Of a stretch of DNA of 38,539 nucleotides, positions 2,717-37,930 are shown piece by piece. The translations under genes were made by a program, and so were the position numbers. The stretch comes from a virus. The stretch lies in the IMG/VR virus record IMGVR_UViG_3300007734_000667, positions 1 through 38,539 of that record. One strand, written 5' to 3'. The notes under the pieces are model-generated. The model saw nothing but the letters and a program-made list of their open reading frames with translations, was not told the origin of the DNA and did no database searches. Each line of letters begins with the position of its first letter. Positions within the stretch are counted from its first letter, which is position 1.

Positions 2717-5316
2717 TGCCTTGGCAATACATTGATGGTCAGCAGGTTTGGATTCCAGAAGAAGGACAGGCCACTCCTCCCGGTGATTGGTTTGGGAATA
2801 TTCTGTCCTCATTTAAGAGTAACAATGAGCAGCAGCCCGCTACTACTGAAACACCAGCGCCATTTAATCCAAGGCAGTTTTACTCAACTGGAACTAATGA
2901 AGATCGTATCAATTTTCTAAAGAACCTTGGTCTTTCTTACGGAGGTGGAGAGGCTGGCACTGCTGTATGGATTGCTCCGAGTGGTGAACGGATTCCTGAA
3001 TCCGCCATTGTTCAAGGAATTATGGAAGGCACTTTTAAAGGGGTAGCCCCCGCTCGTGTCACTGGCGGCACTGGCGGCACTCCTGCTTATGTTTCTGCTG
3101 CTCAGGCTGAAAATTACCTAGCCTCGGCTGAACTTGCTCGCGCTCAGGCTGCAAACATTCCCGTTCAACAGCAACTTGAACGGGACAAGCAGATTGCTGC
3201 TGAGGCTGCACGCAAGTTTGGTCAGGGCGCTCAACTAATCGGTCTTCAGACTGGCAATCAAGACCTTGCAAATCGCGGCAGTCAGATTGTTTTTGACCAG
3301 AGCAATGCAGTTGCTCAGTCTCAAAATCGCATTATAGAACTTGGTATTACTCAAGATAATCTTCGTGCCAAGAGTCAGTATGACACTGACATGGCAAATA
3401 CTGCTGCTGCAAATGCTGCGCAACAGTTTAATATTACTACTGGTCTTACTGTTGACCAGTTGAATGAGGCTGCTGCTCGTCAAAAGCAGCAAGACATGCA
3501 GGCTCTTGCCCGTGACATTGCCGAGGCTGCCAAGGCTCCCGGTGACTACGGCAAGTTGGCTGCTCTAACTCTTGCCAATGCTGGTTGGGGTGCTCCCAAT
3601 ACTGCCATTGGTAAGGGTGAAGACCTTCGCACTGCTCAGTCTATGGCACCTCTTGAGAGTCAGTTGCGTACGCGACAAGACGTTATGGCTCGACCAGATA
3701 GGCCGTACACTTTTACGTCATATACGCCAACTATGGTGCAGGCACCTGTCATTGCACCTATTGATGTAAGCAAGTTTGCTATGCCACAGCAAACCATGAC
3801 GATGGCTGATGTTAATCGTCAGAAGCGTGAAGGTCTTGCTGCTATTGCTGGTCTTGGTTCAAGCAGTGGGGCAATGTCCCCCGGTGCTTACACGAGCAAT
3901 CTTGCTTCGCAACTTCAGTCTGGCGCTTCTTCTGCTGATGTAAACGCACAACTTAATCAAGCAATTGCTAACCAAATTGCCTCTCTCCCCGGCCCTCAGG
4001 GTGGGAGTGGTGGCGTTCCTGCTGCGGCTGAAGGCGGGATTGTTCCTCGTTACGAAGACGGCGGTGTAAACAACAGCAGTGAGTTTAATCCTATTGCTGT
4101 TTACCAGATGCTTCGTTCTGGTGGTGCCAGCGAACAGCAGGCTGCTGACTTCATCAATACTATTTTGCGTAGTGATCAGGCTCTTGCAAGTAACACTGCT
4201 GCTAAGACTGCTTCTGATGCAGAGGCCGCTGCTCGTGTTGCGCAGCCAGTTTATCGGCCTGTTTCGCAGCGCATGACCGATGCAAGCAATGACACTGAGG
4301 CGCAGTTGCTTCGTCTTGGTATGTCCAACCCGTATCAGCGTACTAGCGGGTATGACGAAGGCGACGCTGCTCCTGCTGCTGCTGGATTTAACCCTGCAAT
4401 GTACAGTCCTGCAAGCGGTGGGTACTACCCTGCTGAGGATGCAGCCCCTGCTGCTTTTGGATTGACTCCGCAGGTAACAGAAAACAGCGCATGGCAGGCG
4501 CGCAAGGAAAAATTTGACTCAGACTTTTCGTCACTGAAGTCTGGTCAAATTACTGGACAAGAATTTGAGAACCGAAATAAGGATCTTGACGACAACCAGT
4601 TTTTGCAGTTTACACGGCTGTATGGCATTCCTGCTGCCGGTTCCGCTGCTCTTGCATTTGGTGCTTCCCTCCCATCAATTGCTCGATGGGTTATGAAAGG
4701 TAATCAGTACAATTATCGTCCTGCGTTTGATTACAACGTGCTTCAGGGGACTGTACCTCAGGGCGCTACACCACAAGCACGCATAGATCCAAATGTGTTT
4801 CGCAGTGTTGGCCTTGGCGGAACAATTGAAGATGCACAGCGACTCGGCCTGTACGCCACAGGTGGAGTTGCTAATGGTGCCTACATCTCTGGTGAGCGTG
4901 GCCCGGAACTGAACATTCCAATTGGCGATAAGACTATCGTGCTCAACCAGAAGCAGATGAAGGCTGCTGGCATTGACCTTAAGAAGTTGATGGCTGGCTC
5001 TAAGAAGCCTGAAAAGTTTGCTAATGGCGGAATCTTTGATGCTGGCTGGGGCAACGTGCAAGACCAAGACCGCACGATGTCAATGCAGTTCCTGAACGAT
5101 GCACTGGCCCGTGCTCGCGCCGGTACGCCGTTTCAGGAGGGGGCGCTCCCTGCTCCAGTCTACGCATCTAGCCCCGGTTTCAGCCCGCTTGTTACGCAGG
5201 TTCTTGGTTCCCTGACCTCTATGGCGCAGGGTGTTCCCACGGAATACTTCCAAGAACTTGCCGCTAAGTACCGTCCGTCTGGTGTCCGTGAGTCTGTTAC
5301 GCAGAGGAGCGCGTAA
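2716..5316 (+). CDS. Large putative internal virion (ejection) protein with tape-measure-like motifs
   Basis: This 866-residue protein is very rich in Ala, Gln and Ser. Residues roughly 130-270 have a heptad-like Ala/Gln pattern suggesting long helices. It carries several Gly-Gly segments of the kind seen near the C-terminus of tape-measure and internal virion proteins: [13 protein letters not shown] around 440, an [12 protein letters not shown] motif around 730, and FANGGIF around 770. No tail-tube or sheath gene is present, so an internal or ejection protein of a short-tailed phage is more likely than a true tape measure. I see no lytic transglycosylase motif. The start overlaps the previous stop (TAATG). 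Confidence 0.6.
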
Positions 5317-6317: not shown

Positions 6318-7421
6318 GTGGCCCAGACCCTCTTTGGTTCTGCCTATTTCGGCACGGACTACTTTGGGTCTGGGCCTACTACTTTCACGTACTCTGGCTC
6401 GGGTGGTGCAACTGCTGGTGGTGCTGCAACTACCAGTGTCCTTCACATCAAGTCGTACACCGGCTCCGGCGGCGGTACTGCTGGTGGTGCCGCTACTACT
6501 TCAGTCCTCCACATCAAGGCCTATACAGGTTCAGGTGGTGCAACTGCTGGCGGCGCTGCCACAACATCTGTCCTGCACGTCAAGGCATACGTTGGTTCTG
6601 GTGGTGCTGTTGCAGGTGGTGCAGCCACAACCCTTCTTTCTCGTACGTACACGTACGTCGGTTCAGGCGGTGCCACTGCCGGTGGCGCTGCAACAACCGA
6701 ATACCTGCGAGTCTTTAGTTATGTAGGCTCAGGCGGCGCTACTGCTGGCGGTGCCGCTGAAACTCTGTTTGTAAACATCCAAGAGTACACGGGCAGCGGT
6801 GGCGCAACTGCTGGTGGAGCGGCTACTACATCAGTCCTGCACGTTTACACGTACGCAGGGTCTGGCGGCGCTAACGCTGGTGGTGCAGCCGATACGGTTT
6901 TCAACAGGACTTACGAGTACGTTGGCAGTGGCGGCGCTACCGCTGGTGGAGCAGCCTCAACTTTTGTTCTGCATGTTTACACATATGCAGGAAGTGGTGG
7001 CGCTACAGCGGGTGGTGCTGCTGAAACGCTGTTCGTTCATATCTATGACTACACTGGTTCCGGCGGAGCGACCGCAGGCGGGGCGGCTACCACCTCTGTA
7101 CTGCACGTTAATTCGTATGTGGGTTCCGGTGGCGCTACCGCTGGCGGGTCTGCTGACGTTCTGCACATCAAGGTCTACGCAGGCTCTGGCGGTGCCACTG
7201 CTGGCGGCGCAGCGGTCGTGGTATGGGAACCAGCAGCGCCCGGTACGGTGGTTATCTACGATGTTCAGGTCAGTGGTTACGTCATGGTTGTCGAGACTTC
7301 CCCTACCGTCGAAGTACACGACACGTTATATGGCGGTACACTGAGTCTAGTAGATTTTGCCCCAACCGCTATGCTTTACGACATGGCTCTTGGAGGAACG
7401 GCGGTGCTGGTAGATGTCTAA
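6318..7421 (+). CDS. Thirteen-fold Gly/Ala-repeat protein, probable virion surface fibre
   Basis: A GTG start is set by GGAG eight bases upstream. The 367-residue product has a short N-terminal segment (LFGSAYFGTDYFGSGP). Thirteen tandem repeats follow, of about 22 residues each with consensus Y-x-GSGGATAGGAAxT-x-x-x-L-H-V-x-x. A non-repetitive beta-rich C-terminal domain of about 70 residues ends it. The repeats differ freely at synonymous codon positions while the GSGG/AGGAA core is kept, so the protein sequence is under selection. The repeat pattern suggests a stacked beta or polyglycine-helix rod. An AYFG-x-x-x-F-x-SGP segment also occurs in the tail protein at 17508. Role inferred: virion surface or adhesin. 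Confidence 0.7.
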   Translation: MAQTLFGSAYFGTDYFGSGPTTFTYSGSGGATAGGAATTSVLHIKSYTGSGGGTAGGAATTSVLHIKAYTGSGGATAGGAATTSVLHVKAYVGSGGAVAGGAATTLLSRTYTYVGSGGATAGGAATTEYLRVFSYVGSGGATAGGAAETLFVNIQEYTGSGGATAGGAATTSVLHVYTYAGSGGANAGGAADTVFNRTYEYVGSGGATAGGAASTFVLHVYTYAGSGGATAGGAAETLFVHIYDYTGSGGATAGGAATTSVLHVNSYVGSGGATAGGSADVLHIKVYAGSGGATAGGAAVVVWEPAAPGTVVIYDVQVSGYVMVVETSPTVEVHDTLYGGTLSLVDFAPTAMLYDMALGGTAVLVDV

Positions 7422-24856: not shown

Positions 24857-24881
24857 CTTTCCCCTACTTCCCTTCTTCGTC

Positions 24882-25115
24882 CTACCACGCCTGTTCGTTC
24901 TCGCGCAATGGCGCAGAACCCGGGAGGTGAATGCCTACTCGCAGCGCCTTCGCTTCCTTTGCGTTCATAGTATTAATCTTGCGTGCTGCATCAGCGCCAT
25001 ACGAGATGAAGCCACTGAACTTCTTCTTGGCCCCACACTTCTGGCACTTGGCTGGCACAATGCTCCCGCCGTCAGCCTCAAGCATCCAGTGATGAACGCA
25101 CTTAGGCTTAGTCAT
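24882..25115 (-). CDS. Small zinc-finger-like protein
   Basis: The 77-residue product begins TKPKCVHHWMLEADGGSI and continues VPAKCQKCGAKKKFSG. Cys, His-His and CxxC together make a likely zinc site. This start pattern (CxHHW...C-x-x-CG) is one I know in short early phage proteins. The ATG overlaps the stop of the HNH gene. The C-terminal half is helical. Confidence 0.75.
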   Translation of the reverse strand: MTKPKCVHHWMLEADGGSIVPAKCQKCGAKKKFSGFISYGADAARKINTMNAKEAKALRVGIHLPGSAPLRENEQAW

Positions 25116-25579
25116 AGGTCTACCACCACATCCTTCGGGCTTAGGAGGAAGGGCCAGTCTTTTCCGTCTTGGTGAAAGAAGTGATTACGCGCCCACTCAC
25201 GCCCGTCAGGGTCTTGCTGAAACCATCCGTTGTGGTACTCGCATACGGTGACAACGGGAAACTTCTCGGCTGCTCGCTGTCCTCCAAAACTACCGCGAGG
25301 TGCAATGTGATGAGGCGAGAGCCGTCCATAGCAGCGGGTTGGAACTCCGGCTGCTTCAGCAGCACAACTCGCTGCGTCTCCCCTGCTGTAAACGTCAGCG
25401 TGTTCTTGTGAAGCGAGATATTCACGCTTGCCCTCCGACATGGGCTTGAGCCCAGCCTTGCGTTCGTCCTGATAGTTGTGCGTCCACGTCGAACCGATGT
25501 GGTTCTCGTGGTTCTTAGCGCCCCCACACTCGGCGCATCTAGGCTTCGGCTTCACACCGATGCTTACCCTTCCAGACAT
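25112..25579 (-). CDS. HNH endonuclease-like protein
   Basis: The 155-residue protein has a zinc-ribbon start (RCAECGGAKNHENH) and an HNH-type core: TRCYGRLSPHHIAPRGS, VVTVCEYHNGWFQQDP and an H/N-rich end (WARNHFF). HNH enzymes nick or cut DNA; near phage replication genes they may be recombination nucleases or free-standing homing enzymes. The N-terminal 40 bases overlap the zinc-ribbon gene upstream. A GTG eight codons in, with AAGGG ahead of it, is an alternative start. Confidence 0.75.
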   Translation of the reverse strand: MSGRVSIGVKPKPRCAECGGAKNHENHIGSTWTHNYQDERKAGLKPMSEGKREYLASQEHADVYSRGDAASCAAEAAGVPTRCYGRLSPHHIAPRGSFGGQRAAEKFPVVTVCEYHNGWFQQDPDGREWARNHFFHQDGKDWPFLLSPKDVVVDL

Positions 25580-25676
25580 TCACCTCGGCCTCGGGAATGC
25601 TGGCCCCGCGCTTACCGCAGCGGGTGCATTCCGGAACAACCTCTCCCTTAAACATTGACGTGTGAACCAGAAGCAT
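25539..25676 (-). CDS. 45-residue zinc-ribbon-like protein
   Basis: The ATG overlaps the TAA of the upstream HTH gene (TAATG). The product reads MLLVHTSMFKGEVVPECTRC, then GKRGASIPEAEVNVWKGKHR and a short Cys-containing tail. CTRCG plus a later Cys, with VWKGKHRC, suggests half or all of a ribbon. The gene runs 41 bases into the HNH gene in another frame. The Met at residue 8 is a second possible start. Confidence 0.6.
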   Translation of the reverse strand: MLLVHTSMFKGEVVPECTRCGKRGASIPEAEVNVWKGKHRCEAEA

Positions 25677-25930
25677 TACCCCTCAACCTCCCATCCTGTA
25701 CGCAACAGTGCGTTGCGAATAGCGGTAGCAGCAGCAGGCAAGTCTTCTGCCACGACAAGGAACCCGGCGTCGGTCTGGCGGATGATTGCCTTCAACTTCG
25801 GTGCCTTGCTCAACGTGACGTAGATAGCCTGACGGCTAACGCCCGCCTTCTCTGCAATGTCAGCCACGCTGTACCCAGCACGGCGCTTGCGGATAGCGTC
25901 AGCAGCATCAATCTTGCGAATGCCAGCCAT
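25676..25930 (-). CDS. Resolvase-like helix-turn-helix protein
   Basis: The 84-residue protein holds AIRKRRAGYSVADIAEKAGV and SRQAIYVTLSKAPKLK, a clear helix-turn-helix of the Hin/resolvase C-terminal kind, with a C-terminal helical segment. It has no catalytic domain, so it is a small DNA-binding protein. It is the best repressor-like candidate of the early arm beside the gene at 22514, and might bind the repeated words described elsewhere. That link is a guess. Confidence 0.8.
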   Translation of the reverse strand: MAGIRKIDAADAIRKRRAGYSVADIAEKAGVSRQAIYVTLSKAPKLKAIIRQTDAGFLVVAEDLPAAATAIRNALLRTGWEVEG

Positions 25931-25941
25931 GAGTAGCCTCT

Positions 25942-26115
25942 CTAATCTGGTGCGCTTGCGTTCTTCAGCCGAGGCTTCTGCCGAGAACGGTCAGCCTGTG
26001 GGTTTGGTAGTACGTTGAAGTATACAACTTTGCCGCATGTCATACACTCTGAATCACCGTCGTCTACGCGGCTTGGATACAGATTGCTTCCGCACTTTGG
26101 GCACGTCTTGTTCAT
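25942..26115 (-). CDS. 57-residue zinc-ribbon protein
   Basis: AGAGGGAAC lies six bases ahead of the ATG at 26113-26115. The product begins NKTCPKCGSNLYPSRVDDGD and continues SECMTCGKVVYFN, a TFIIB-like zinc ribbon with two CxxC pairs, then a Pro/Arg-rich tail. The first 62 bases overlap the end of the gene upstream in another frame. Confidence 0.8.
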   Translation of the reverse strand: MNKTCPKCGSNLYPSRVDDGDSECMTCGKVVYFNVLPNPQADRSRQKPRLKNASAPD

Positions 26116-26248
26116 TGCGTTCCCTCTTCCATTCTTCGACAGCAGCCATGGCGCACTCGACACACTTCTGTCCAAGTGCCATCTGCTTGCCGCACCCACC
26201 GAGACAAGGTTCGTATAAACGCTCATCTACTCCGGGCAATGAGAACAC
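26054..26248 (-). CDS. Small Cys-rich protein with basic C-terminus
   Basis: The frame opens at GTG inside the end of the upstream gene. The product contains LYEPCLGGCGKQMALGQKC and VECAMAAVEEWKRERN, ending in a KPRRRR cluster. CxxxC and CxxC make a probable zinc site, and the tail would favour nucleic acid. A TTG at 26239 is an alternative start. The overlapping frame on the same strand (from 26226) looks like a shadow of this one. Confidence 0.6.
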   Translation of the reverse strand: MFSLPGVDERLYEPCLGGCGKQMALGQKCVECAMAAVEEWKRERNEQDVPKVRKQSVSKPRRRR

Positions 26249-26424
26249 CTCGGCTCTTTGTCTTGGTCATACCAGCGGGCAGGCCCGAGGCAGCAGGCGC
26301 AGGCAAATACCTCCGCCCACTGCGCTTCGTGGTCATCCTCTGGCGTCGCTTCGATGCGAGTAGAAAGCACGTCGTACCGCTTCTCCATCGCCTCCTGAGT
26401 GACACCGTGAGTACAGGTAGCCAC
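26227..26424 (-). CDS. 65-residue Cys-rich protein
   Basis: A GTG start overlaps the TAG of the helicase gene (TAGTG). The product reads ATCTHGVTQEAMEKRY, an acidic middle, then FACACCLGPARWYDQDKEPR and CSHCPE. Two closely spaced Cys pairs at the end form a zinc knuckle candidate. It sits directly downstream of the helicase and is likely made together with it. Confidence 0.65.
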   Translation of the reverse strand: MATCTHGVTQEAMEKRYDVLSTRIEATPEDDHEAQWAEVFACACCLGPARWYDQDKEPRCSHCPE

Positions 26425-27881
26425 TAAAAGATCGCCTCTTCCTGCTTGACATAAGGAACTGTGACCTGTGATTCCCTATACTCGGGAACCGTCACACTTC
26501 CTTCTTCTTCATCGAAAGTGGACTGCACACCCACAACTTCGTTGTTGTGGGTGGGTGTGCTGTCAGGCGTTGTCTCAATCAAACTGTGCGGGTCTTCGCC
26601 TCGCCACACTTCGTTATGTACGGACTCGGCAAGGTCGAACAGAATCTTCCTGCCGTCCCTGCTTGCCTGAGCAAACCGCTCTGTGCCAAGCACCTTCGTC
26701 ACCGTCGAACGGTCGAGGCCGAGGCCAGTAGCGATAGTGCCAGCGTCAGCCGCACCAAACAGGCGCAGATACTCCTCAACTTGCTCTGAAGTGGACTGCT
26801 TCTTCTGTGACGAAATCTCCACGAACTCGTTGGGCTTGGCCTTGCGGACAAGGTTCAGTCCGTACTGGTCGAACACCAGTGCAATCTGTGTAAACGCCGT
26901 GTCCTTGCGAATGTCGTTTGCCTTGTCCACACGCAGGCCGATGCCCAGTGTGTCGCCCCTGCTCTTGTCGTCGGTCATCAACTGCACCGTCACGTCGGCG
27001 GCAGCGTCGAACATCTGACTGCCAAACGTGTGCGACTCGTCCCCACGAGGGGTGTGCGCCAGCACAGCCCACGCAGCAGGAGAAAGACTGTTCAGTGCGT
27101 CCATAGCCTTGTTCGCTGGGTCATTGTCGATGAGGTTGCCGTAGCCCATGCGGGACAGTGAGTCAACGAGAACGAACGATACGCCCTCCCGCTCCACCGT
27201 CCGCTGGATACCGTCAATCACATCGGGCAGGCTGCGGCCACGCCGGTCGAGGCGCAGCAACTCACGGCTGCGGGGCAGGCCGAGCGACTGGTTGATGTCA
27301 CCGAGGCGCACGTCCACCGACTCAGCAGACCGCTCAAGGTTCACGAACAAGGCTGGCCCCTGCGTCACCGGCCAGAACGTAGAGATGCCAGCGTCCACCG
27401 TGACGCAGAACAACATGCCGAGCCACGACTTACCACGACCGGGCGGCGCGAAGATGATGGTGCCACCACCCTCGACGACAAACGGATTGATGACGAACTG
27501 TTTATACGTGCGCTCGTTGGCACCGCCCCGGCGCTCGGCTTCCTGACTGCCAATCTCGTACTGCCACAGCCCACGCTGGAACAGCATCAAGTCCATGCTC
27601 ATCCGTGCTGCGTCGTATCCGTTCGCAGTGAGGATGGCCTTCATCGCATCCTTCTTGAAGATGGCATTGACCAGACGCTCACGCTCCTCACGTCGGCCCA
27701 CGTTGTACGTGTCCTCGTCGAGCGGGATAGCGCCACGGCCACGCTCACGGAAGCCGATGCTCACGGTGGCGTGAACGCCAGTGCGCTCGTTGCGAACGTT
27801 GGCTGCCTGATAGATGAGGTCGATGCCCTCGGCCTCAACAATAGATTGAATGGCACCGTTGGGTGTGCGGTGATAATCCAT
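26424..27881 (-). CDS. RepA-like/AAA_25 replicative helicase (RecA-fold ATPase)
   Basis: The 485-residue protein has an N-terminal part of about 130 residues. The RecA-fold ATPase core follows, with Walker A APPGRGKS (145-152), Walker B FVLVDSLSRM (236-245) and WAVLAHTPRGD (about 273-283) as the third motif. After it comes a winged-helix-like segment (EQVEEYLRLFGAADAGTIA, LGLDRSTVTKVLG) and an acidic tail. The core is of the hexameric RepA/RSF1010 helicase group. ATG at 27881 overlaps the stop of the DnaB N-domain gene (TGATG), so the earlier start at 28013 is rejected. Its 3' end carries a two-part DNA element also found at 35.9 kb. Confidence 0.85.
   Translation of the reverse strand: MDYHRTPNGAIQSIVEAEGIDLIYQAANVRNERTGVHATVSIGFRERGRGAIPLDEDTYNVGRREERERLVNAIFKKDAMKAILTANGYDAARMSMDLMLFQRGLWQYEIGSQEAERRGGANERTYKQFVINPFVVEGGGTIIFAPPGRGKSWLGMLFCVTVDAGISTFWPVTQGPALFVNLERSAESVDVRLGDINQSLGLPRSRELLRLDRRGRSLPDVIDGIQRTVEREGVSFVLVDSLSRMGYGNLIDNDPANKAMDALNSLSPAAWAVLAHTPRGDESHTFGSQMFDAAADVTVQLMTDDKSRGDTLGIGLRVDKANDIRKDTAFTQIALVFDQYGLNLVRKAKPNEFVEISSQKKQSTSEQVEEYLRLFGAADAGTIATGLGLDRSTVTKVLGTERFAQASRDGRKILFDLAESVHNEVWRGEDPHSLIETTPDSTPTHNNEVVGVQSTFDEEEGSVTVPEYRESQVTVPYVKQEEAIF
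26467..26549. repeat. Two-part repeat element, copy in helicase gene
   Basis: Two perfect 18-bp words, TGTGATTCCCTATACTCG (26467-26484) and CACAACTTCGTTGTTGTG (26532-26549), recur in the same order and orientation at 35909-35926 and 35982-35999. The start-to-start distance is 65 bases here and 73 there. The second word is the heart of a hairpin (CACCCACAAC, TTCGTT loop, GTTGTGGGTG). An inverted 14-bp CACACTTCGTTATG lies at 26605-26618 and 35891-35904. In this copy it encodes part of the helicase tail; the other copy is non-coding. Confidence 0.85.
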
Positions 27882-28348
27882 CAGAACATCCCCTCGTACT
27901 TGTCCACCCACTTGGACTCGGCACCGTAGCCCTGCTGCACCATCTTGGTTCCCGTCTTGATAAGGGCACGCCTCTCTGCGTACTCCTTCACCATCTTGGC
28001 CCACGCACCACATCCGTACGCCGAGTAGTTCTCGTCCATCAGGACGAACAGGAACGGCTCGGCATACAGGTGCGGGGCCAGTAGTTTATCAAGGGCGTCA
28101 AGGTATCCAAGTTCAGCGAGTGCATGGCACACAGTCGGTACAGTGACAGGCTCGCCACGGTGCCACAGCCAGCCGAATGCACGCCATACGGCACGGTTCT
28201 CTGGCACAAAGAAGCAAGCAGGGTCGAGTGTGTTTACACGTTCAGCCAGTGCAGTAGGCTCGTCGTTTAGTACCGCACCAATCAACTGCCTCTCTGCGCT
28301 GTCCGAGTGTGGCACCTCTCCCTGTCTCGGTGCAGCGTTAGGTGTCAT
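27881..28348 (-). CDS. DnaB N-terminal-domain protein (split helicase partner)
   Basis: The 155-residue protein matches the DnaB N-terminal domain: SDSAERQLIGAVLNDEPTAL, the DPACFFVPENRAVWRAFGWL helix pair, PVTVPTVCHALAELG and a YAERRALIKTGTKMV end. In normal DnaB this domain binds primase and is fused to the ATPase. Here it ends just where the ATPase begins as a separate, overlapping gene. GAGAGG seven bases ahead supports the ATG at 28346-28348. It may organise the hexamer or recruit host DnaG. Confidence 0.85.
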   Translation of the reverse strand: MTPNAAPRQGEVPHSDSAERQLIGAVLNDEPTALAERVNTLDPACFFVPENRAVWRAFGWLWHRGEPVTVPTVCHALAELGYLDALDKLLAPHLYAEPFLFVLMDENYSAYGCGAWAKMVKEYAERRALIKTGTKMVQQGYGAESKWVDKYEGMF

Positions 28349-28685
28349 CGATCTGCCTCTCTGCTCCTGCGTGCTATTGAACGGGTGAGTGCGGGCCTCC
28401 CGAATGAACGGCTCGCCCTGCGTTGGTACGTCGAATGTCCCAGCCGTGATGTGCGCCTTGAACTCTATTGCGCTCAGTCCGACAACGCCTCCCCAGCACG
28501 TATCAGACAGCAACACACCACACGCCACGTCGCTCGGGTAGACAACCTCAAGATTGAAACGCTGCTGGAACTTGACCACTCGCCCGTTCAATGGCACGCA
28601 GGAGCGCGTGCCAAGTTTTTTATTTACCGCCACGACCCCGACAACGACCGCGACCACGTGACCCTTTGATAGTTTGTCGCCATCG
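28349..28685. other. Gap of uncertain coding on either strand
   Basis: The minus frame continuing into the DnaB-N gene is open up to a GTG at 28657 (with AAAGGG just upstream), and would add about 100 residues including VVKFQQRFNLEVVYPSDVA. The plus strand in the same codon phase is also open to 28669, with ERLALRWYVECPSRDV and KFFIYRHDPDNDRDHV. Codon-in-phase antisense frames often look protein-like, so one is probably a shadow. By arm direction the minus frame is favoured, either as an N-terminal extension or as a former separate gene. I cannot decide from sequence alone. Confidence 0.4.
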
Positions 28686-28952
28686 CTACTTCAGAATCCC
28701 AAATGACTCGATGGCCGAAGTCTGCACGTACCACTGGCCCGGAAGCCGCTGGCAATCCTTCCACCACTTGTTGTCGTCGAATGGGCCTGTCTCGTAGACG
28801 ATACCTGCGTTCTCCAACAGAACGCAGGTATCATTCACGCCCACAAGATTCCCCGTGTAAATGTAGTTGAGGCAGAACAGGGTCACTCGCTCACCGAGCA
28901 GCGCCAGCAACCCCTCGCCCTCGACCTCTGCCACGTTCATAATCTTTTTCAT
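28686..28952 (-). CDS. Conserved small phage protein
   Basis: The 88-residue product contains LLALLGERVTLFCLNYIYTG and NLVGVNDTCVLLENAGIVYE, then WWKDCQRLPGQWYVQTSAIE and SFG near the end. I recall this strand-rich pattern (LFC-x-NYIYTG-x-L-x-GVNDT...VYETG) as a conserved unknown family in environmental phages, often near replication genes. It has an AGGAAAC upstream. A 14-bp perfect hairpin lies within the VNDTCVLLENAGI codons. Confidence 0.75.
   Translation of the reverse strand: MKKIMNVAEVEGEGLLALLGERVTLFCLNYIYTGNLVGVNDTCVLLENAGIVYETGPFDDNKWWKDCQRLPGQWYVQTSAIESFGILK
28800..28832. promoter_or_regulatory. Perfect 14-bp hairpin inside a gene
   Basis: GATACCTGCGTTCT (28800-28813) and AGAACGCAGGTATC (28819-28832) flank the 5-base loop CCAAC. 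So long a perfect inverted repeat in a coding stretch is improbable by chance. It may be an RNA structure in the early mRNA, a protein-binding palindrome or an internal attenuator. Confidence 0.7.
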
Positions 28953-28979
28953 TGTCTAACTGTTTCCTCTCGTTACTGC

Positions 28980-29435
28980 CTAGAACGGCTCGTCGTCGCC
29001 GTACTCGGAGCCACCCACCTGCACAACAGGAGCCTCGTACTGCGCGGCGTACTGCTTGGCACCGTTGAAGCCACGCTGCTTCGGCGCAGCAGTCGAGATG
29101 AACTTGACACCAAGCCGCCCACCCTCGGCCAGCCCACGCGCACCGGACTTGCGCACCGCATCCTGCACGGCCTTCTGCATCTGGCCCTTGATGTACAGCG
29201 TGCGGTTGCCGTCGTCGTCCTCGTCGTCACGCTCGTCAGTGTGGAGCGTCACGACCAACTGCATCATCGGGTCGCCGTTGTCCCACGTCCGGGGCGTGCC
29301 GGTCTTGATGTCGGTCTGCTGCTTGACTTCCATCGACAGGATGGTGCCCACCACCTTGTCGCCCTCGGCGTCAAACTTGGCGGACTTGGCACCGCCGCCC
29401 ATCAGGAAAGCGTTCGGGTCTGCGTAGTTGGTCAT
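28980..29435 (-). CDS. Single-stranded DNA-binding protein (phage SSB type)
   Basis: The 151-residue protein has a beta-barrel-like centre (KVVGTILSMEVKQQTD, MMQLVVTLHTDERDDED, RTLYIKGQMQKAVQDAVRKS) and a flexible Gly/Gln-rich part. It ends DDEPF, like the acidic tip by which SSB proteins contact replication partners. With the helicase genes next to it, single-strand DNA binding is the natural role. Many of these phage SSBs look little like E. coli SSB outside the tip. The ATG overlaps the stop of the upstream gene (TAATG). Confidence 0.8.
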   Translation of the reverse strand: MTNYADPNAFLMGGGAKSAKFDAEGDKVVGTILSMEVKQQTDIKTGTPRTWDNGDPMMQLVVTLHTDERDDEDDDGNRTLYIKGQMQKAVQDAVRKSGARGLAEGGRLGVKFISTAAPKQRGFNGAKQYAAQYEAPVVQVGGSEYGDDEPF

Positions 29436-29875
29436 TACTTTTCCTCCATGTAAACAGTCAATGCTTCGCTGCCGGTGCCCGGCATCTCGAACTGTGCAAT
29501 CGCATCAGCCCACGATGCGCCCTGCTCCTTGCGGTAGCGGGCCAACATCACATGGTCGATGCGGATCATCCCGGCGTTCGCTGCCTTGATGAGCGCGTCG
29601 ATGCCACCCTGCGTAGTGACGAGTGACACCACGTCGTATGTCGGTGTGCCCTTCCTCTCTGTAATCTTGGCTGCTGCACCCGTCTCTGGGTCACGCATCC
29701 AACGATCACCAGTGAGAGCCATGTGCTGCTTGATTTGCTCGACAGCAAACTTCTTCGCTGTCTCTAGTGGCTTCAACTCATCGTTGATGTGCGCCACGCT
29801 GGTGATGAGGTCGAGGATGCGGCGCTCGCTGGCCGCATCCTGATCACCGATGTAGTTGTCGAAGTCTGTAGTCAC
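29435..29875 (-). CDS. Unknown replication-region protein
   Basis: The 146-residue product starts at GTG with GAGAGAGG just ahead. It has a helical start (SERRILDLITSVAHINDELK), a KFAVEQIKQHMALTGD helix and strand turns (DRWMRDPETGAAAKITERKG), and ends in acidic helices. Coupling to the SSB by TAATG suggests a partner in DNA replication or recombination. No motif allows a family call. Confidence 0.7.
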   Translation of the reverse strand: MTTDFDNYIGDQDAASERRILDLITSVAHINDELKPLETAKKFAVEQIKQHMALTGDRWMRDPETGAAAKITERKGTPTYDVVSLVTTQGGIDALIKAANAGMIRIDHVMLARYRKEQGASWADAIAQFEMPGTGSEALTVYMEEK

Positions 29876-30563: not shown

Positions 30564-31406
30564 TTAGTCCTCCTCCTTCTTGGGCAACACGCCCATGTTC
30601 ACCAGTTGCTGCTCAACCCAAGCCTGCGCTCGGGATTCGCTCCAATCAGAACCAGATAGGATGCGTGGCATATACAGGTCGGCATCCGTCTTGACATCGC
30701 AGGGCGCACCGTACCCACCGCCGCCATCGCCAATGCGAACTGATTTTCGCACCGACCTCGGCTGCTGCTCCCAGATTGAGAACCCGAGGCGTCGCAGATA
30801 CGCAGGGTGCGCAGTTGCAAACGCAATCGCATCCATCTGCACCGGGTCGCCCGGATTCTTGATAGTGGTGTAAACAGGAATCGTGTGCCCGCCGCCAGCG
30901 GTGTTGACAACCACGGTCAGGCGCACGCGCCGACCGGACAACTCCAACAGGTCAGCGAGAGCAGCGACGGCAGCGCCACGAATCATGTACGTCTTGGAAC
31001 TAATCGAAGCAGACGCCGACACGTTGCACACAATGTCAATGATGGGCGACTCCATCTCTACGCGCTTGCGCATCACCATCGCATCTGGCAGCCCGGCATT
31101 GAACCGCCCGACGTTGACACCAGAGCCAGTGACAGAGCGTGTGTAAACGGGCTGGCCGAACGCCTCACGGTGAGCGTCCTCGACAACAGCCTTGAACTGG
31201 TAAGTCAGCGCCTCAATCGCTTCACGTCCTTCGGGCCAACCCTTGCGAGCGACTTCGATAGCGCCGTCAAAGCCAGTGTTGAAGTCCCACGTACTATTAC
31301 CACCCGTTCCCTTGGAACTACGGTACTCCTCCCTGCAATCAGTCGCTCCGTTCTCAGCGGCGTCGATAAACTCGTACAGGTTAGCGAACTTGACAACGTG
31401 TTCCAT
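30564..31406 (-). CDS. VWA-like protein, partner of MoxR ATPase (DUF7192-like)
   Basis: The 280-residue protein lies 1 base after the AAA ATPase gene. Its centre (residues 121-166) reads PIIDIVCNVSASASISS and then GAAVAALADLLELSGRRVRL, laid out like a von Willebrand A domain: strand, MIDAS-like DxSxS loop, helix, strand. The first MIDAS Asp is replaced by Asn (NVSAS, 128-132). The N-terminal part has FDGAIEVARKGWPEGREAI, which I associate with an actinophage family I remember as DUF7192. MoxR ATPases usually act with such VWA proteins in chaperone-like or metal-insertion complexes. A further GHT/KTD part follows. Confidence 0.7.
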   Translation of the reverse strand: MEHVVKFANLYEFIDAAENGATDCREEYRSSKGTGGNSTWDFNTGFDGAIEVARKGWPEGREAIEALTYQFKAVVEDAHREAFGQPVYTRSVTGSGVNVGRFNAGLPDAMVMRKRVEMESPIIDIVCNVSASASISSKTYMIRGAAVAALADLLELSGRRVRLTVVVNTAGGGHTIPVYTTIKNPGDPVQMDAIAFATAHPAYLRRLGFSIWEQQPRSVRKSVRIGDGGGGYGAPCDVKTDADLYMPRILSGSDWSESRAQAWVEQQLVNMGVLPKKEED

Positions 31407-31407
31407 G

Positions 31408-32544
31408 TTAGACAGCCCCCTTCTTCACAGCAGCCTGAACCTTCTTGGCATCAGCCACAGACATGCGCTCCCAGAACCGAGCGTCAGCGACCTCGCGCAG
31501 CGAGCCACCACCATTCACGATGAACTTGCAACCGTCGATGATTGCCCGAGTGCTAATCGGGATGCGAATGTCGAGCGACTCGGTAATGTTGCGCACTTCC
31601 AGCACCAGCGCGTACCAATCGTTGATGGTCTGGCGCTGCTTCTCGGTGGCAACAGCCGACCACGATGCGACGATGGACTGTTCGATGCCGGAGTCGTAGC
31701 CCCAGCGCAGGAAGTTGAAGCGGTCGAGCGTGGCACCGTCAATCTGCGAGCGCCCGATGTACACCGAGTCACGCCCCTGCCCGACAGTGTTGGCAGCGGC
31801 GATGCACCGGAAGTCAGGGTGCTTGTTTACACGCTCGTCACCAAAGAACGCGAACCCGTTGGCGAGCGCACTATTGATGGCGATGAGCGAATCGCCCGAC
31901 GCCGAGTCAATCTCGTCGATGAGCAGCACGCCGCCGTTCTTGTACGTCTCATAGAACGCACCGGGTACGAACGTGCCAGCCGCATTGTTGTAACCGAGCA
32001 GGTCATACTCAGCGGTCGTTGGGCCGACAGACTTGGCGCGGAAGTGTGGCAGCCCGAGCGCATCGCACGCAGCCTCAGCAGCAGCGGTCTTGCCAGTACC
32101 AGCAGGGCCAACCAGCCAGACGTTACAGCCAGCCTGCAACATGCGCAGCAGCCGGGGGAACTGCGCGTGCTGCACGCCCATGTCCTTCGGTGGTTCGTTT
32201 ACACGCGCCACCTCGACGCGAACCGGAGTGACAGCCCGAGCCTCAGCGCGTGCGACCTCGGCAACCTTGTCCCAGTCAGTGCCAGCAGCGCGCGCCTCGG
32301 TCTGCGCGATGCGAGTGACCTCGCTCCAGTCAAAGATGCCAGACAGGTGAGGCTTGATAGCCTCGATGATGACCTGCTCCAGCCCGCCAGCAGGTGCGGG
32401 AACAGCAGGTGTAAACACAACCTCAGCCTCAGTCACAGGTACCTCCTCCTTGCCGCGCGTCACGCGCGGGCACGCTTCGCCACCGGGATGGAACACTACG
32501 TTCGGGTACACCGAACACGCTTCGCACCGCCACGCCTTCGCCAT
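31408..32544 (-). CDS. MoxR-type AAA+ ATPase
   Basis: The 378-residue protein has an N-terminal CxxC ribbon (WRCEACSVYP, C at 25), a Pro/Ala/Glu-rich linker and an AAA_5/MoxR core. The core has Walker A GPAGTGKT (146-153), Walker B LLIDEIDSA (207-215), sensor AAANT and arginine-finger LDRF. It would remodel proteins with ATP, normally together with a VWA partner, here the next gene. ATG at 32544 is used because GGAGGAC nine bases upstream is inside the end of the SprT-like gene. The longer reading to 32589 overlaps that gene. Confidence 0.88.
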   Translation of the reverse strand: MAKAWRCEACSVYPNVVFHPGGEACPRVTRGKEEVPVTEAEVVFTPAVPAPAGGLEQVIIEAIKPHLSGIFDWSEVTRIAQTEARAAGTDWDKVAEVARAEARAVTPVRVEVARVNEPPKDMGVQHAQFPRLLRMLQAGCNVWLVGPAGTGKTAAAEAACDALGLPHFRAKSVGPTTAEYDLLGYNNAAGTFVPGAFYETYKNGGVLLIDEIDSASGDSLIAINSALANGFAFFGDERVNKHPDFRCIAAANTVGQGRDSVYIGRSQIDGATLDRFNFLRWGYDSGIEQSIVASWSAVATEKQRQTINDWYALVLEVRNITESLDIRIPISTRAIIDGCKFIVNGGGSLREVADARFWERMSVADAKKVQAAVKKGAV

Positions 32545-32548
32545 TTGT

Positions 32549-33151
32549 CTAGTCCTCCTCCTCGCCGCTTGCGACACTGACCGGGCCACGGCAATCCTCG
32601 TCCGGGCAAGTCAGCGTGCGCCCTTCCGCCCACTTCGCCGTGGTGCGGAACACGAACCCGCACTCCGAGCACTCGCACTTGAGCATGCGCGTCGTCTGCT
32701 TCTTCTTCTTGGCAGCAAGCGCCAGCCCGTCCGCACTCGGGTAGTCACCGAGGGACTGCGCGAGCAATGCGTACTCAGTACGCAAAGCCGCACCGGGCAC
32801 GCTCGCTTTCGGGTCATTGACATAACCCATGCAGAAGAACGCGCGCTGGAACATTTTGCCGTGCCCGCCCTTGCAGTCGAGCGCAGCGTGAATCAACTCG
32901 TGCCCGAGGATAGACAGGACATCGATAGCGTCGTGGATATCCACGCGCACGGTAATCTCGTTGATGCCGTCCGCACTAGCAGCGCGCGCCCACGTCTGCC
33001 CGCCAGTGCGCGTGCGCATCCCACCCGACGGCCAGCCCACGCCGATGCGCACTTCCGGCACGGACAAGTCAGTGCGACTGAACATTACCGTCCGCAACTC
33101 CGTGGCCGCAGCCTGTAGCCACTCCTCGCGCGTCTCGAACAACGTAGCCAT
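32549..33151 (-). CDS. SprT-like zinc metalloprotease
   Basis: The 200-residue protein has the zincin motif HELIH (84-88) followed by GGHGKMFQRAF (95-105), as in SprT/Spartan proteases. A C-terminal zinc ribbon follows (CECSECGFVF...CPDEDC). SprT-family enzymes cut proteins cross-linked to or trapped on DNA. AGGAGAGG before the ATG at 33149-33151 sets the start. A longer reading from 33220 begins inside a perfect hairpin and is rejected. It is the first gene of the SprT, MoxR, VWA-like group. Confidence 0.85.
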   Translation of the reverse strand: MATLFETREEWLQAAATELRTVMFSRTDLSVPEVRIGVGWPSGGMRTRTGGQTWARAASADGINEITVRVDIHDAIDVLSILGHELIHAALDCKGGHGKMFQRAFFCMGYVNDPKASVPGAALRTEYALLAQSLGDYPSADGLALAAKKKKQTTRMLKCECSECGFVFRTTAKWAEGRTLTCPDEDCRGPVSVASGEEED

Positions 33152-35060: not shown

Positions 35061-35135
35061 GAACAGCCGTTCCGAACAGCCGTTCTAGACGGCGCGCCAG
35101 TGTAAACAATGACGCGCGCGGTAGAACGTCCGTTC
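35061..35135. repeat. Three GAAC-N4-GTTC palindromes upstream of early genes
   Basis: GAACAGCCGTTC occurs at 35061-35072 and again at 35074-35085, 13 bases apart. GAACGTCCGTTC lies at 35124-35135, within TAGAACGTCCGTTCTA. A GTGTAAAC word sits between at 35100-35107. They precede the ribosome site of the 34695 gene and look like operators of the same family as the array at 35.5 kb. Confidence 0.75.
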
Positions 35136-35505: not shown

Positions 35506-35759
35506 CTAACGTGCGCGTTAGAGCATATGTTCTAAACTAGAACATGTGTTCTAAACTAGAACGGATGTTCTGAAACCGAACGCATGTTCTAAATCAGAAC
35601 TAATGTTCTAAACCCTAACCTTGACGTGCGCGTGAGGGCGCGGCAAGTTTGTGTGTCAAAACGCGGTAGAACGCATGTTCTACTCAAACCCTGACGTAAG
35701 CGTTAGAACGTGCGTTCTAAATAACCTGTCGCTAGAACAAATGTTTAGAACATATGTTC
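35506..35759. repeat. Palindrome array: 19-bp-phased GAAC-N4-GTTC boxes with a second motif
   Basis: Nine boxes of the form GAAC-N4-GTTC start at 35521 (first half GAGC), 35540, 35559, 35578, 35597, 35669, 35706, 35735 (last half GTTT) and 35748. The first five are exactly 19 bases apart, and TCTAAA usually follows. A second palindrome family of about 16 bp, near CTAACGTGCGCGTTAG, lies at 35506, 35621 and 35691. The first and third of these share their last base with a GAAC box. Nearly all boxes fit the Gram-positive LexA pattern GAACRNRYGTTC. Phased, clustered sites in a non-coding stretch suggest an operator or origin iterons. Confidence 0.85.
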
Positions 35760-35820
35760 GTTGTCCCAAAAATTTACACGACATATTTTGCGAACTTGCC
35801 CTTGTCACATGTCAACAAGT
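35760..35820. other. AT-rich stretch beside the palindrome array
   Basis: A run of low-GC DNA (CCCAAAAATTTACACGACAT and following ATTTTG) lies between the GAAC boxes and the CACAGTT repeats. Next to phased repeats such a stretch could be an unwinding element of an origin. It contains ATTTACAC, one base from the genome-wide word. The plus-strand frame across it (35651-36013) is not convincing as a gene. Confidence 0.4.
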
Positions 35821-36023
35821 AACTGTGACGCAAGTGTGCTCGTCACAGTTCATCACACTTCCCGTCACAGTTCGTGGGCTAGTTACTAGACATAACGAAG
35901 TGTGCAAGTGTGATTCCCTATACTCGTGGAATCACAGCACAGTTCGTGAGAGGTTTTTCTTTGAAGTGATTGGAGGTGGCACACAACTTCGTTGTTGTGT
36001 GTGTGCCGCCTAGGAAGTGTGAA
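35821..36023. repeat. CACAGTT/CACACTT repeats and second copy of the two-part element
   Basis: AACTGTGACG (35821) pairs with CGTCACAGTT (35841), which recurs at 35863. CATAACGAAGTGTG (35891-35904) is the inverse of a word in the helicase gene. TGTGATTCC (35909) pairs with GGAATCACA (35928) around CTATACTCGT. CACAACTTCGTTGTTGTG (35982-35999) forms a hairpin with flanking GGC and GCC. Two 18-bp words here are identical to those at 26467 and 26532. The region is non-coding. Confidence 0.8.
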
Positions 36024-36061
36024 GACGAAGTGTGACGGAACAGTTCCCGTCACACTTCGTC
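36024..36061 (-). terminator. Hairpin over terS stop codon
   Basis: A 15-bp arm starting GACGAAGTGTGACGG pairs with 36047-36061, enclosing AACAGTTC. The terS stop codon lies in the right arm. It probably ends leftward transcription from terS, so the repeat region behind it would stay free of read-through. The same CACACTTCGT word recurs in the neighbouring repeats. Confidence 0.65.
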
Positions 36062-36490
36062 GATAAGGCTCTGCCTCAGTGCCTTGATGTCTTCGATGCT
36101 TGTTCCCTCTGGAATCTGGAGGGTAACTTGCCGTGCATCGACTAGTGGTTCGCGGAACTCGGGGAACCTCTTGGCTAGAAGGTTGAGAGCGGCAACTGCT
36201 GCGCCAAGCGTCTTGGGGCCACCCTCTCGGGCTTCCCTGACAATCTCTACACATTCGTTGATAATGTACTCAACGCTGCCGACGTTCCGTTCAAACGCTT
36301 CCTTTGTAGCAGCGGCTAGACGCTCCTTGACCAGCGGAGCCTTCTCGATGCGCTGGGCAACGATGGTGATCTGGTGGGCGTCTTGTACCTGCCCGCCAGC
36401 AGCCCTGTACGCGGCGGAAGGCTTCATCCCTTCAAGCCGTGCCTGAACGTATCGCTCTTGGAGTGGAGTGAGTTTAAGTCGCTTCGACAT
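36050..36490 (-). CDS. terS: Terminase small subunit
   Basis: The 146-residue protein begins SKRLKLTPLQERYVQARLEG, with an N-terminal helix-turn-helix (GMKPSAAYRAAGGQ), a central helical coil and a C-terminal beta segment (RQVTLQIPEGTSIEDIKALR). This is the layout of small terminases that recognise the packaging site. It lies beside terL but points the other way, which is unusual. No ribosome site precedes the ATG; instead TGTTAGATT, an extended -10, ends six bases ahead of it, so the mRNA is probably leaderless. Confidence 0.85.
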   Translation of the reverse strand: MSKRLKLTPLQERYVQARLEGMKPSAAYRAAGGQVQDAHQITIVAQRIEKAPLVKERLAAATKEAFERNVGSVEYIINECVEIVREAREGGPKTLGAAVAALNLLAKRFPEFREPLVDARQVTLQIPEGTSIEDIKALRQSLIDEV

Positions 36491-36535
36491 GGTTTAAATC
36501 TAACACTTTCAGTGTAAACCTGCTACAGTTCTTCT
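36491..36535. promoter_or_regulatory. Divergent leaderless promoter pair between terS and terL
   Basis: On the plus strand TG-C-TACAGT (36521-36529) ends six bases before the terL ATG. On the minus strand TG-T-TAGATT (36505-36497) ends six bases before the terS ATG. Each is an extended -10 (TGN-TANNNT) at the distance expected for a transcript starting at the ATG. GTGTAAAC (36512-36519) lies between them and would touch both if bound. No good -35 is visible. Confidence 0.55.
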
Positions 36536-37930
36536 ATGGCGACACTCACGAAAGAGGCTTCGATTGCAGCCCTAGACCGGCTGCTCTGCGAAAAGTCGTT
36601 TGTCGAGTTCCTTTCCTATATCAAAGTTCGCTCAGACGATCCGTACAATCCCGGTGCTGTCCCTTGGAAGAACTGGGACTACCTCATTGAGCGGGCTGAG
36701 GCGTGGGCTGAGGGGAAGTCTGAAGTCATCCTCAAGGCACGGCAGTTGGGAATGACGTGGCTGTTCGCTGCCTACGCTGACTGGTGCGCTCGGAACGGGA
36801 AGGCTGTCGGTGCCTTCTCCGCTGGTCAGGTAGAGTCTCGTGCCATCCTTGACCGCGTTCGGTACATCGAGGAGATGCTGCCTAAGCACCTTCAGTCTGG
36901 CGCTACTATCCGGTCTGACGACGCTACGTACCCGTCCGGTGGTTCTATTAGGGTCTTCCCGTCCACGGAACACGCCGGTATCTCCTTTACCTTCCAAGTC
37001 GTAGCGTTCGACGAGGCGCACTTCCACCCGTACGGCGCGCAGAACTACGCTGCTGTCCGGCCTACGCTTTCTGCCGGTGGTCAGTTCCTTATGTTCTCGA
37101 CCGCCGACCCGACGCTTGGCCCCAACGGATTCTTCCACGATATGTACTGGGCGTCGGAGCGCGGGGAGACGCCGTACACCTCTGTCTTCATTCCTTGGAA
37201 CGCCCGCCCCGGACGCGACGAGGAATGGCTTGCTCGTGAGAAAGCAGCGTTTACAGGACTGCCGGAGGAGTTCGATGCTTATTACCCGTCTACTCCAGAG
37301 TCTGCATTCGTCGCTCGGTCTGGTCTGGTCTTTCCTCAATTCTCTACGCTCAAGCACGTCAAACCCGCTGCTACTCCTCTTAGTGATTGCCGACGAGTCG
37401 TGGCAGGGGTTGACTTCGGAGGTGGTGACCCTACTGCGGTCGTCATCCTTGGACTCGACGCCGAACAGCGAGTCCATCAGTACGCCGAGTTTTACAAGCG
37501 AGGAAGCGTCGGAGTAGACCAGATTGGCGAGTTCCTCTGCCAGTTCCCAGTCGATGCCGTCATGTGCGACCCGTCGCAGCAGACTTCTATCGCCACTCTT
37601 GTAGGGACGTACAACCTCCCAGCCCGCAAGGGAGATAACCGGCGTGGCAACGGTCTTGGCCTTCTTGCCTTCCTCTTGGATAACGAACGGCTAACTATCG
37701 AACCGTCGAACATCCATTCCATCCAAGAGTTCCCCGGCTACCGCTGGGCCAACCGTACCGACCCTAACGACAAGACACGTTATGCAACGGCTACCCCGGT
37801 CAACAACCACGCCGACGCCATGGACGCCCGCAGGTACGCCGTCGCTGAGATTCTGGCAATGCTCATGCCGCGTAAGCAGATGCCTCGCCGTACACTATCT
37901 GGAACCCCGTTGAGTAGGAGTGCTGTTTAA
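36536..37930 (+). CDS. terL: Terminase large subunit
   Basis: The 464-residue motor has Walker-A-like LKARQLGMTW (about 66-75), Walker B VVAFDEAHFH (about 156-165) and an MFSTAD coupling segment. The nuclease domain has GVDFGGGDPTAVV, MCDPSQQTS and the C-terminal NNHADAMDARRYA, which supply the conserved Asp residues for two metals. It packages DNA into the procapsid and cuts it. It opens the late arm, with no ribosome site but an extended -10 just upstream. The packaging type cannot be told from sequence alone, though the permuted map fits headful cutting. Confidence 0.93.
   Translation: MATLTKEASIAALDRLLCEKSFVEFLSYIKVRSDDPYNPGAVPWKNWDYLIERAEAWAEGKSEVILKARQLGMTWLFAAYADWCARNGKAVGAFSAGQVESRAILDRVRYIEEMLPKHLQSGATIRSDDATYPSGGSIRVFPSTEHAGISFTFQVVAFDEAHFHPYGAQNYAAVRPTLSAGGQFLMFSTADPTLGPNGFFHDMYWASERGETPYTSVFIPWNARPGRDEEWLAREKAAFTGLPEEFDAYYPSTPESAFVARSGLVFPQFSTLKHVKPAATPLSDCRRVVAGVDFGGGDPTAVVILGLDAEQRVHQYAEFYKRGSVGVDQIGEFLCQFPVDAVMCDPSQQTSIATLVGTYNLPARKGDNRRGNGLGLLAFLLDNERLTIEPSNIHSIQEFPGYRWANRTDPNDKTRYATATPVNNHADAMDARRYAVAEILAMLMPRKQMPRRTLSGTPLSRSAV

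Follow-up and report, generated by a model that had tools for sequence, protein, structure and literature searches.

A palindromic element at two places in an uncultured phage genome, inside a helicase gene and beside the small terminase gene: candidate paired binding regions for a replication initiator

An element of about 170 bp, built from three inverted repeats, is found at two places 9.4 kb apart in the DNA of an uncultured phage (IMGVR_UViG_3300007734_000667, positions 1 to 38,539; these 38,539 nucleotides are hereafter called the window), once in the tail of a helicase gene and once in the non-coding region beside the small terminase gene, terS. The two-place element is real and not a product of chance. 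A role in replication is probable, and we give about an even chance to the reading that both places are paired binding regions for the replication initiator of the phage, for which the winged-helix-like region at the C-terminus of the helicase is the likeliest candidate; we infer an origin function. A sequence-only reading of the same DNA had proposed a site used by the helicase or a second origin, and this proposal is the best supported one, because the arms at both copies and the C-terminal segment of the helicase have changed together in a relative (G002) whose helicase is otherwise nearly identical.

Two exact 18-mers mark the element. Word 1, TGTGATTCCCTATACTCG, starts at 26467 in the helicase copy and at 35909 in the non-coding copy, and word 2, CACAACTTCGTTGTTGTG, at 26532 and 35982; each is found exactly once per copy, and the spacing from word 1 to word 2 is 65 in the helicase copy and 73 in the non-coding copy. 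The recurrence of both words in this order and at these spacings, as first described, proved correct: the matches are exact, and no repeated 18-mer arose in 60 first-order Markov simulations. Tandem-repeat genes and contig ends aside, no other exact direct repeat in the window is as long as these two. A third word shared in inverted orientation also exists, but at 15 bp it is one base longer than the 14 bp first given: the reverse complement of CACACTTCGTTATGT (26605-26619) is found at 35890-35904. As to the contig ends, positions 1-144 and 38396-38539 are 97% identical over 144 bp, and contig L003 spans the junction with one copy, so the record is circular or a circularly permuted assembly. 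A virion-region protein encoded at 6318-7421 contains about eleven Gly/Ala-rich repeats of 22 residues (66 nt).

Alignment of the two places revealed a common order of H1, a pyrimidine tract, H2 and H3 (Table 1). H1 is an inverted repeat around an invariant loop word, CCCTATACTC, and word 1 represents its inner arm and loop. Word 2 had been described as the core of a hairpin with a 4-base asymmetry in the right arm; the hairpin, H2, is supported at both copies (shuffle z -3.5 and -4.0) and the asymmetry at the helicase copy. In the window, folding supports H1 and H2 at both loci and, for the non-coding copy, H3 as well. The sites are palindromic and of mixed orientation, not tandem direct repeats. 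The non-coding copy sits in the long gap between terS and the early genes, where an A+T-rich block lies to the left of the lone half-sites, beside the array (32-38% GC at 35720-35799); no such A+T-rich stretch accompanies the helicase copy (45-58% GC).

Table 1. Positions of the element, its parts and the neighbouring genes in the window.
Feature	Position	Strand	Details
AAA_25 (RecA-like) helicase gene	26424-27890	-	Pfam AAA_25, 7.9e-17
Winged-helix-like C-terminal segment, residues 406-475	26589-26798	-	proposed reader of the sites
Helicase-tail unit	26450-26619		imperfect inverted ends ACATAAGGAACTGTG / CACACTTCGTTATGT
H1, helicase copy	26453-26503		loop word CCCTATACTCG; holds word 1 (26467-26484); fold z -3.67
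H2, helicase copy	26521-26564		hairpin with word 2 (26532-26549); fold z -3.48
H3 arms, helicase copy	26582-26611		AACTGTG ... CACACTT; in G002 AACTGTTC ... GAACACTT
A+T-rich conserved block	35763-35800		AAAATTTACACGACA ... TTTTGCGA; in all relatives covering the region; candidate unwinding region
Lone half-sites, both orientations	35821-35876		AACTGTGACG, CGTCACAGTTC, ATCACACTTCC, CGTCACAGTTCG; G002 counterpart AACTGTTCC-type
Non-coding unit H1-H2-H3	35890-36061		adjoins terS; from alignment
H1, non-coding copy	35895-35947		holds word 1 (35909-35926); fold z -7.73
H2, non-coding copy	35974-36011		holds word 2 (35982-35999); fold z -3.95
H3, non-coding copy	36024-36061		perfect 15-bp arms; right arm forms the terS stop in the window
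terS (small terminase)	36050-36490	-	phrog_51, 2.8e-12; 4zc3 fold match, probability 0.99, E 0.69
terL (large terminase)	36536-37930	+	phrog_2, 8.9e-31; divergent from terS

Relatives were found with terL as the marker, and the terL-bearing contigs end before the helicase gene. The unit is present in four further contigs: L002, which is nearly identical to the window, L001, L008/L014, and G002, a 25-kb contig (L003/L004) that holds both copies. In the more distant terL relatives, short words of their own form clusters next to terS (TGACGAA in L016-L020, AAGTGTG in L021), and alignment found no H1-H3 at their homologous gap. The terS-side array is most likely old, given the other words in L021 and the L016 group, and the H1-H3 unit a later addition in the lineage of the window, possibly copied to the gap from the helicase gene. 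Word 2 alone also occurs, in a different sequence context, in the unrelated contigs L005-L007 and is therefore not diagnostic. No DNA-level match to either region or to the element was obtained in the phage and plasmid collections, no match to the helicase among the phage records, and neither a third helicase nor a host was found in further viral and genome scans.

The building block of both units is a phage-specific half-site word, which in G002 has been replaced. AA[CG]TGTGA occurs ten times in the window, each time within the two element places, where 0.1 would be expected under a uniform distribution, and once in G002. In G002, AA[CG]TGTTC takes its place in almost every inner arm and lone site of the two units; this word is found 16 times in G002 (11 in its two places) and four times in the window (one in the element). 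Between the window and G002, the counts are thus 10 versus 1 for AA[CG]TGTGA and, for AA[CG]TGTTC located in the elements, 1 versus 11 (Fisher p 1e-4). At both loci the switch from GA to TC affects the two inner arms of H1 (in the helicase copy, TGTGA/TCACA in the window versus TGTTC/GAACA in G002), and it extends to the arms of H3 and the lone half-sites. The changes in the inner arms of H1 and H3 are complementary, and the arms still pair after the switch. The outermost H1 arm (GAA[CG]TGTG) was not part of the switch, and the H2 word is invariant between the two genomes. Since lone, unpaired half-sites switch as well, a sequence-specific factor acting on double-stranded DNA accounts for the pattern better than conservation of hairpins. 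On sequence alone, a trans-acting DNA-binding factor as the reader of the sites is thus well supported, and the likeliest factor is the winged-helix-like end of the helicase.

The open frame of the helicase reaches 28013, with a likely start near 27887, and Pfam detects AAA_25 only and no primase domain in the protein. Its C-terminus is termed winged-helix-like on weak sequence similarity, to an AlkZ-like HTH (2.8e-4, below the cut-off) and to a Z-alpha winged helix (E 0.058); the AlphaFold model of this part is poor (mean pLDDT 39.6) and unusable. A DnaB-like N-terminal domain is encoded by a separate frame (27881-28657) directly upstream of the AAA_25 frame (26424 to about 27890), as if a replicative helicase had been split. 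In the early block of about 5 kb that is syntenic with G002 (24,875-29,875), patches of less than 78% identity are H1 (26471-26495), the winged-helix-like segment (26608-26792) and about 12 positions at 29553, so that H1 and the winged-helix-like region are the only substantial ones. Elsewhere, the region 30564-32589, which encodes a DUF7192 protein beside a CobS-like AAA ATPase (phrog_249), has no counterpart in G002.

At the codon level, the AAA part of the helicase is nearly the same in both genomes (311 unchanged, 45 synonymous and 5 non-synonymous among 361 codons), whereas the winged-helix part is not (24, 31 and 15, respectively, among 70). The H1-coding tail has 17 unchanged, 4 synonymous and 9 non-synonymous codons out of 30, a non-synonymous excess over the AAA part (Fisher p 4e-5); most of the changed codons in this tail alter the amino acid, and the changes follow the palindrome. 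All 22 codons of H2 (477-498) are unchanged, against 46 of 70 changed in the winged-helix segment (p 2e-8), a contrast that falls to p 0.09 when the comparison is made with the AAA part alone. The element in the helicase gene lies beside the segment coding for the winged-helix-like region and co-varies with it, in one comparison: both copies and a readable helicase are available in two genomes, the window and G002, so the co-variation represents essentially one switch event.

The same codons bear on another origin of the repeat. Both copies encode THNNEVV on the minus strand, as had been pointed out, and from this duplication of a gene fragment had been offered as the alternative. That alternative is rejected on the codon patterns, since the 4 synonymous and 9 non-synonymous changes of the H1 tail follow the palindrome. 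By eye, the minus-strand frames of the non-coding copy resemble the helicase tail in nothing beyond the shared words, and the common THNNEVV is a side effect of H2, whose DNA sequence does not vary across the 22 codons. The element may still be a recombination target, as had also been suggested.

If the sites are read by the initiator, the helicase, or a complex containing it, would bind the half-sites of both units as dimers or multimers, and the strands would open at the A+T-rich block near 35.76-35.80 kb, beside the non-coding copy. The intragenic copy may then serve as another origin, assist as a helper site or act as a fork barrier, like oriL and oriR of SPP1 with gp38. A more specific proposal, possible but in our view doubtful, is a lock-and-key arrangement: a phage family in which the replicative helicase is endowed with its own origin-specificity domain and a compact palindromic origin unit is kept at two unlinked places, coding at one and non-coding at the other. 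The domain and all copies would switch specificity together by recombination, with the universal core (the CCCTATACTC loop and H2) remaining fixed, and the end of the helicase would have to change in concert with both sites. GC skew, which is lowest around 35-38 kb, was dropped as evidence for an origin because it follows gene orientation, with which it is fully confounded.

The main rival assigns the elements to TerS, whose DNA-binding domain would recognise them either for packaging (as pac-like sites) or as operators of terS, and we hold this to be unlikely. The non-coding copy does adjoin terS, though the helicase copy lies 9.4 kb off; half-site arrays lie beside terS in all relatives covering the region; and the TerS DNA-binding domain is 48% identical between the window and G002 with the rest at 98%, a conserved stretch lying between. 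The N-terminal DNA-binding domain is similar to that of phage SF6 TerS, the window protein resembling the SF6/SPP1 type, and pac of SPP1 overlaps terS (PMC6316719). However, this rival is weakened because the recognition residues of TerS do not track the word: L016, L017 and L020 share TGACGAA with TerS recognition parts only 16-58% identical, and in L021 a word like that of the window, AAGTGTGA, goes with a recognition part that is unrelated (32% identical). Moreover, DNA binding by the SF6 TerS domain is not sequence-specific (PMC4737164). Recognition by TerS would leave the copy inside the helicase gene unexplained, and the divergent TerS patch extends to the start of terL (36297-36547), as in ordinary mosaic exchange. 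TerS is a weaker candidate reader than the helicase C-terminus. At the end of terS itself, the window reads IDEV-stop from H3 (36046-36062) and L001 and L003 read IDNE-stop; in L001 a P-loop kinase-like gene (MKTLVLVRGLPGSGKST..., 2741-3124) is inserted between H3 and terS.

The remaining explanations invoke transcription, mobility or RNA. Operators of a phage transcription regulator, at which a bound dimer would block or control promoters at both places, are quite unlikely: TATACT, which would make a good -10 hexamer, is part of the invariant loop word CCCTATACTC, and TTGACA or a similar sequence lies upstream in several copies, but the distance from TTGACA to TATACT is 25-26 bp and not 16-18, promoter prediction returned none at either place, and a rightward transcript starting at the helicase copy would run antisense to the helicase gene. 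A small HTH protein encoded at 25676-25930 could be such a regulator; it is 89% identical in G002 with the segment IAEKAGVSRQAIYVTLS unchanged, and therefore leaves the word switch unexplained. Palindromic elements of Rickettsia insert in frame in genes, and a small non-autonomous element of this mobile or duplicating kind, copied between the helicase gene and the gap, would fit a discrete unit (about 170 bp) bounded, at the helicase copy, by imperfect inverted ends, its absence from the homologous gaps of L021 and L016/L020, and copies that are 50-63% identical across loci. We nevertheless find it improbable, with two copies only, no transposase and no clear target duplication; mere drift would not replace one word in both arms of both copies in step with changes in the lone half-sites and in a DNA-binding domain. 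Duplication as the source of the second copy can be reconciled with initiator binding. Least credible, and very improbable, are RNA hairpins (terminators or regulatory RNA) at gene ends: although the folds are stable at both copies and H3 lies at the end of terS, a terminator scan detected no terminator-like site and an Rfam scan matched no family at the elements, lone unpaired half-sites switch like the hairpin arms, and the H1 fold of the G002 helicase copy is no more stable than those of shuffled sequences (z -0.97).

The paired regions that we propose for the initiator have a counterpart in the Bacillus phage SPP1, where the origin-binding protein gp38 has one binding region, oriL, within its own gene 38 and another, oriR, in a gap 12-13 kb away; oriR has been proposed as the obstacle that turns replication over to concatemer synthesis (PMC6316719, PMC3485210). 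Every step required by the mechanism proposed here is available in the SPP1 model. The likeness extends to two cognate regions about 10 kb apart (9.4 kb here and 12-13 kb in SPP1), one in the gene of the initiator (a candidate in the window) and the other in a long non-coding gap, to an SPP1/SF6-type TerS and to a Holliday-junction resolvase gene (RusA-like in the window). In SPP1, however, the initiator is separate from the DnaB-type helicase gp40, whereas the candidate binding region of the window is fused to the helicase; the SPP1 sites are direct repeats, where the window has palindromic half-sites; and replication activity is shown for SPP1 alone. Two separated regions made from one binding word are found in the window as in SPP1; direct repeats with an A+T-rich unwinding region at both copies are not. 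We do not class the window as a member of the SPP1 type because of its palindromic half-sites, its single A+T-rich neighbour, at the non-coding copy, and a helicase as the candidate reader.

Other systems share part of the arrangement. In phage P4, the alpha protein combines a primase with an SF3 helicase, and crr is the second cis region. Alpha is described as binding the origin repeats with a winged helix (PMC4234260). P4 and the window would share a helicase polypeptide whose C-terminal winged helix (a candidate in the window) reads short repeats at the origin, as well as two separated cis regions; in contrast, the window ATPase is AAA_25/RecA-like with sites inside palindromes, and the combination of primase, SF3 helicase and winged helix in one protein was not found. 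Phage lambda has a single origin of four tandem iterons inside gene O, and O is not a helicase. Lambdoid origins resemble the window in having type-specific binding sites inside the gene of their reader (again a candidate here), and differ by their one origin, tandem iterons and non-helicase O, against two places in the window; related work deals with O and the iterons of Stx phages (PMC7466680). PLE satellites exchange origins together with the DNA-binding domain of the initiator (PMC8263062). Their RepA/ori pairs have semi-palindromic sites that move with this domain, as would be the case here, but with a single origin, and in a satellite instead of a phage.

If the initiator reading is true, the two-site layout of SPP1 would extend to a phage group without a close relative in the annotated collections searched, and the specificity domain would reside on the helicase itself. 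TGTGA and TGTTC would then provide a natural specificity pair, with two distant sites and a protein, for studying how replication specificity is exchanged. As a sequence rule, word clusters beside terS may locate replication or packaging control regions in uncultured phages.

The gap beside terS carries a further set of palindromes. GAACN4GTTC is concentrated at 35518-35760 and 35061-35135, where 10 of its 11 copies in the genome lie, partly with a 19-bp period, and the array resembles the LexA/SOS boxes of Gram-positive bacteria. Fewer copies are present in L001, G004 and G006, and none in G002 and G005. This left part of the gap is hypervariable: in G002 (L003, 6840-6980) palindromes of the GGTACC/ATACCC type replace GAACN4GTTC, and L019 has both.
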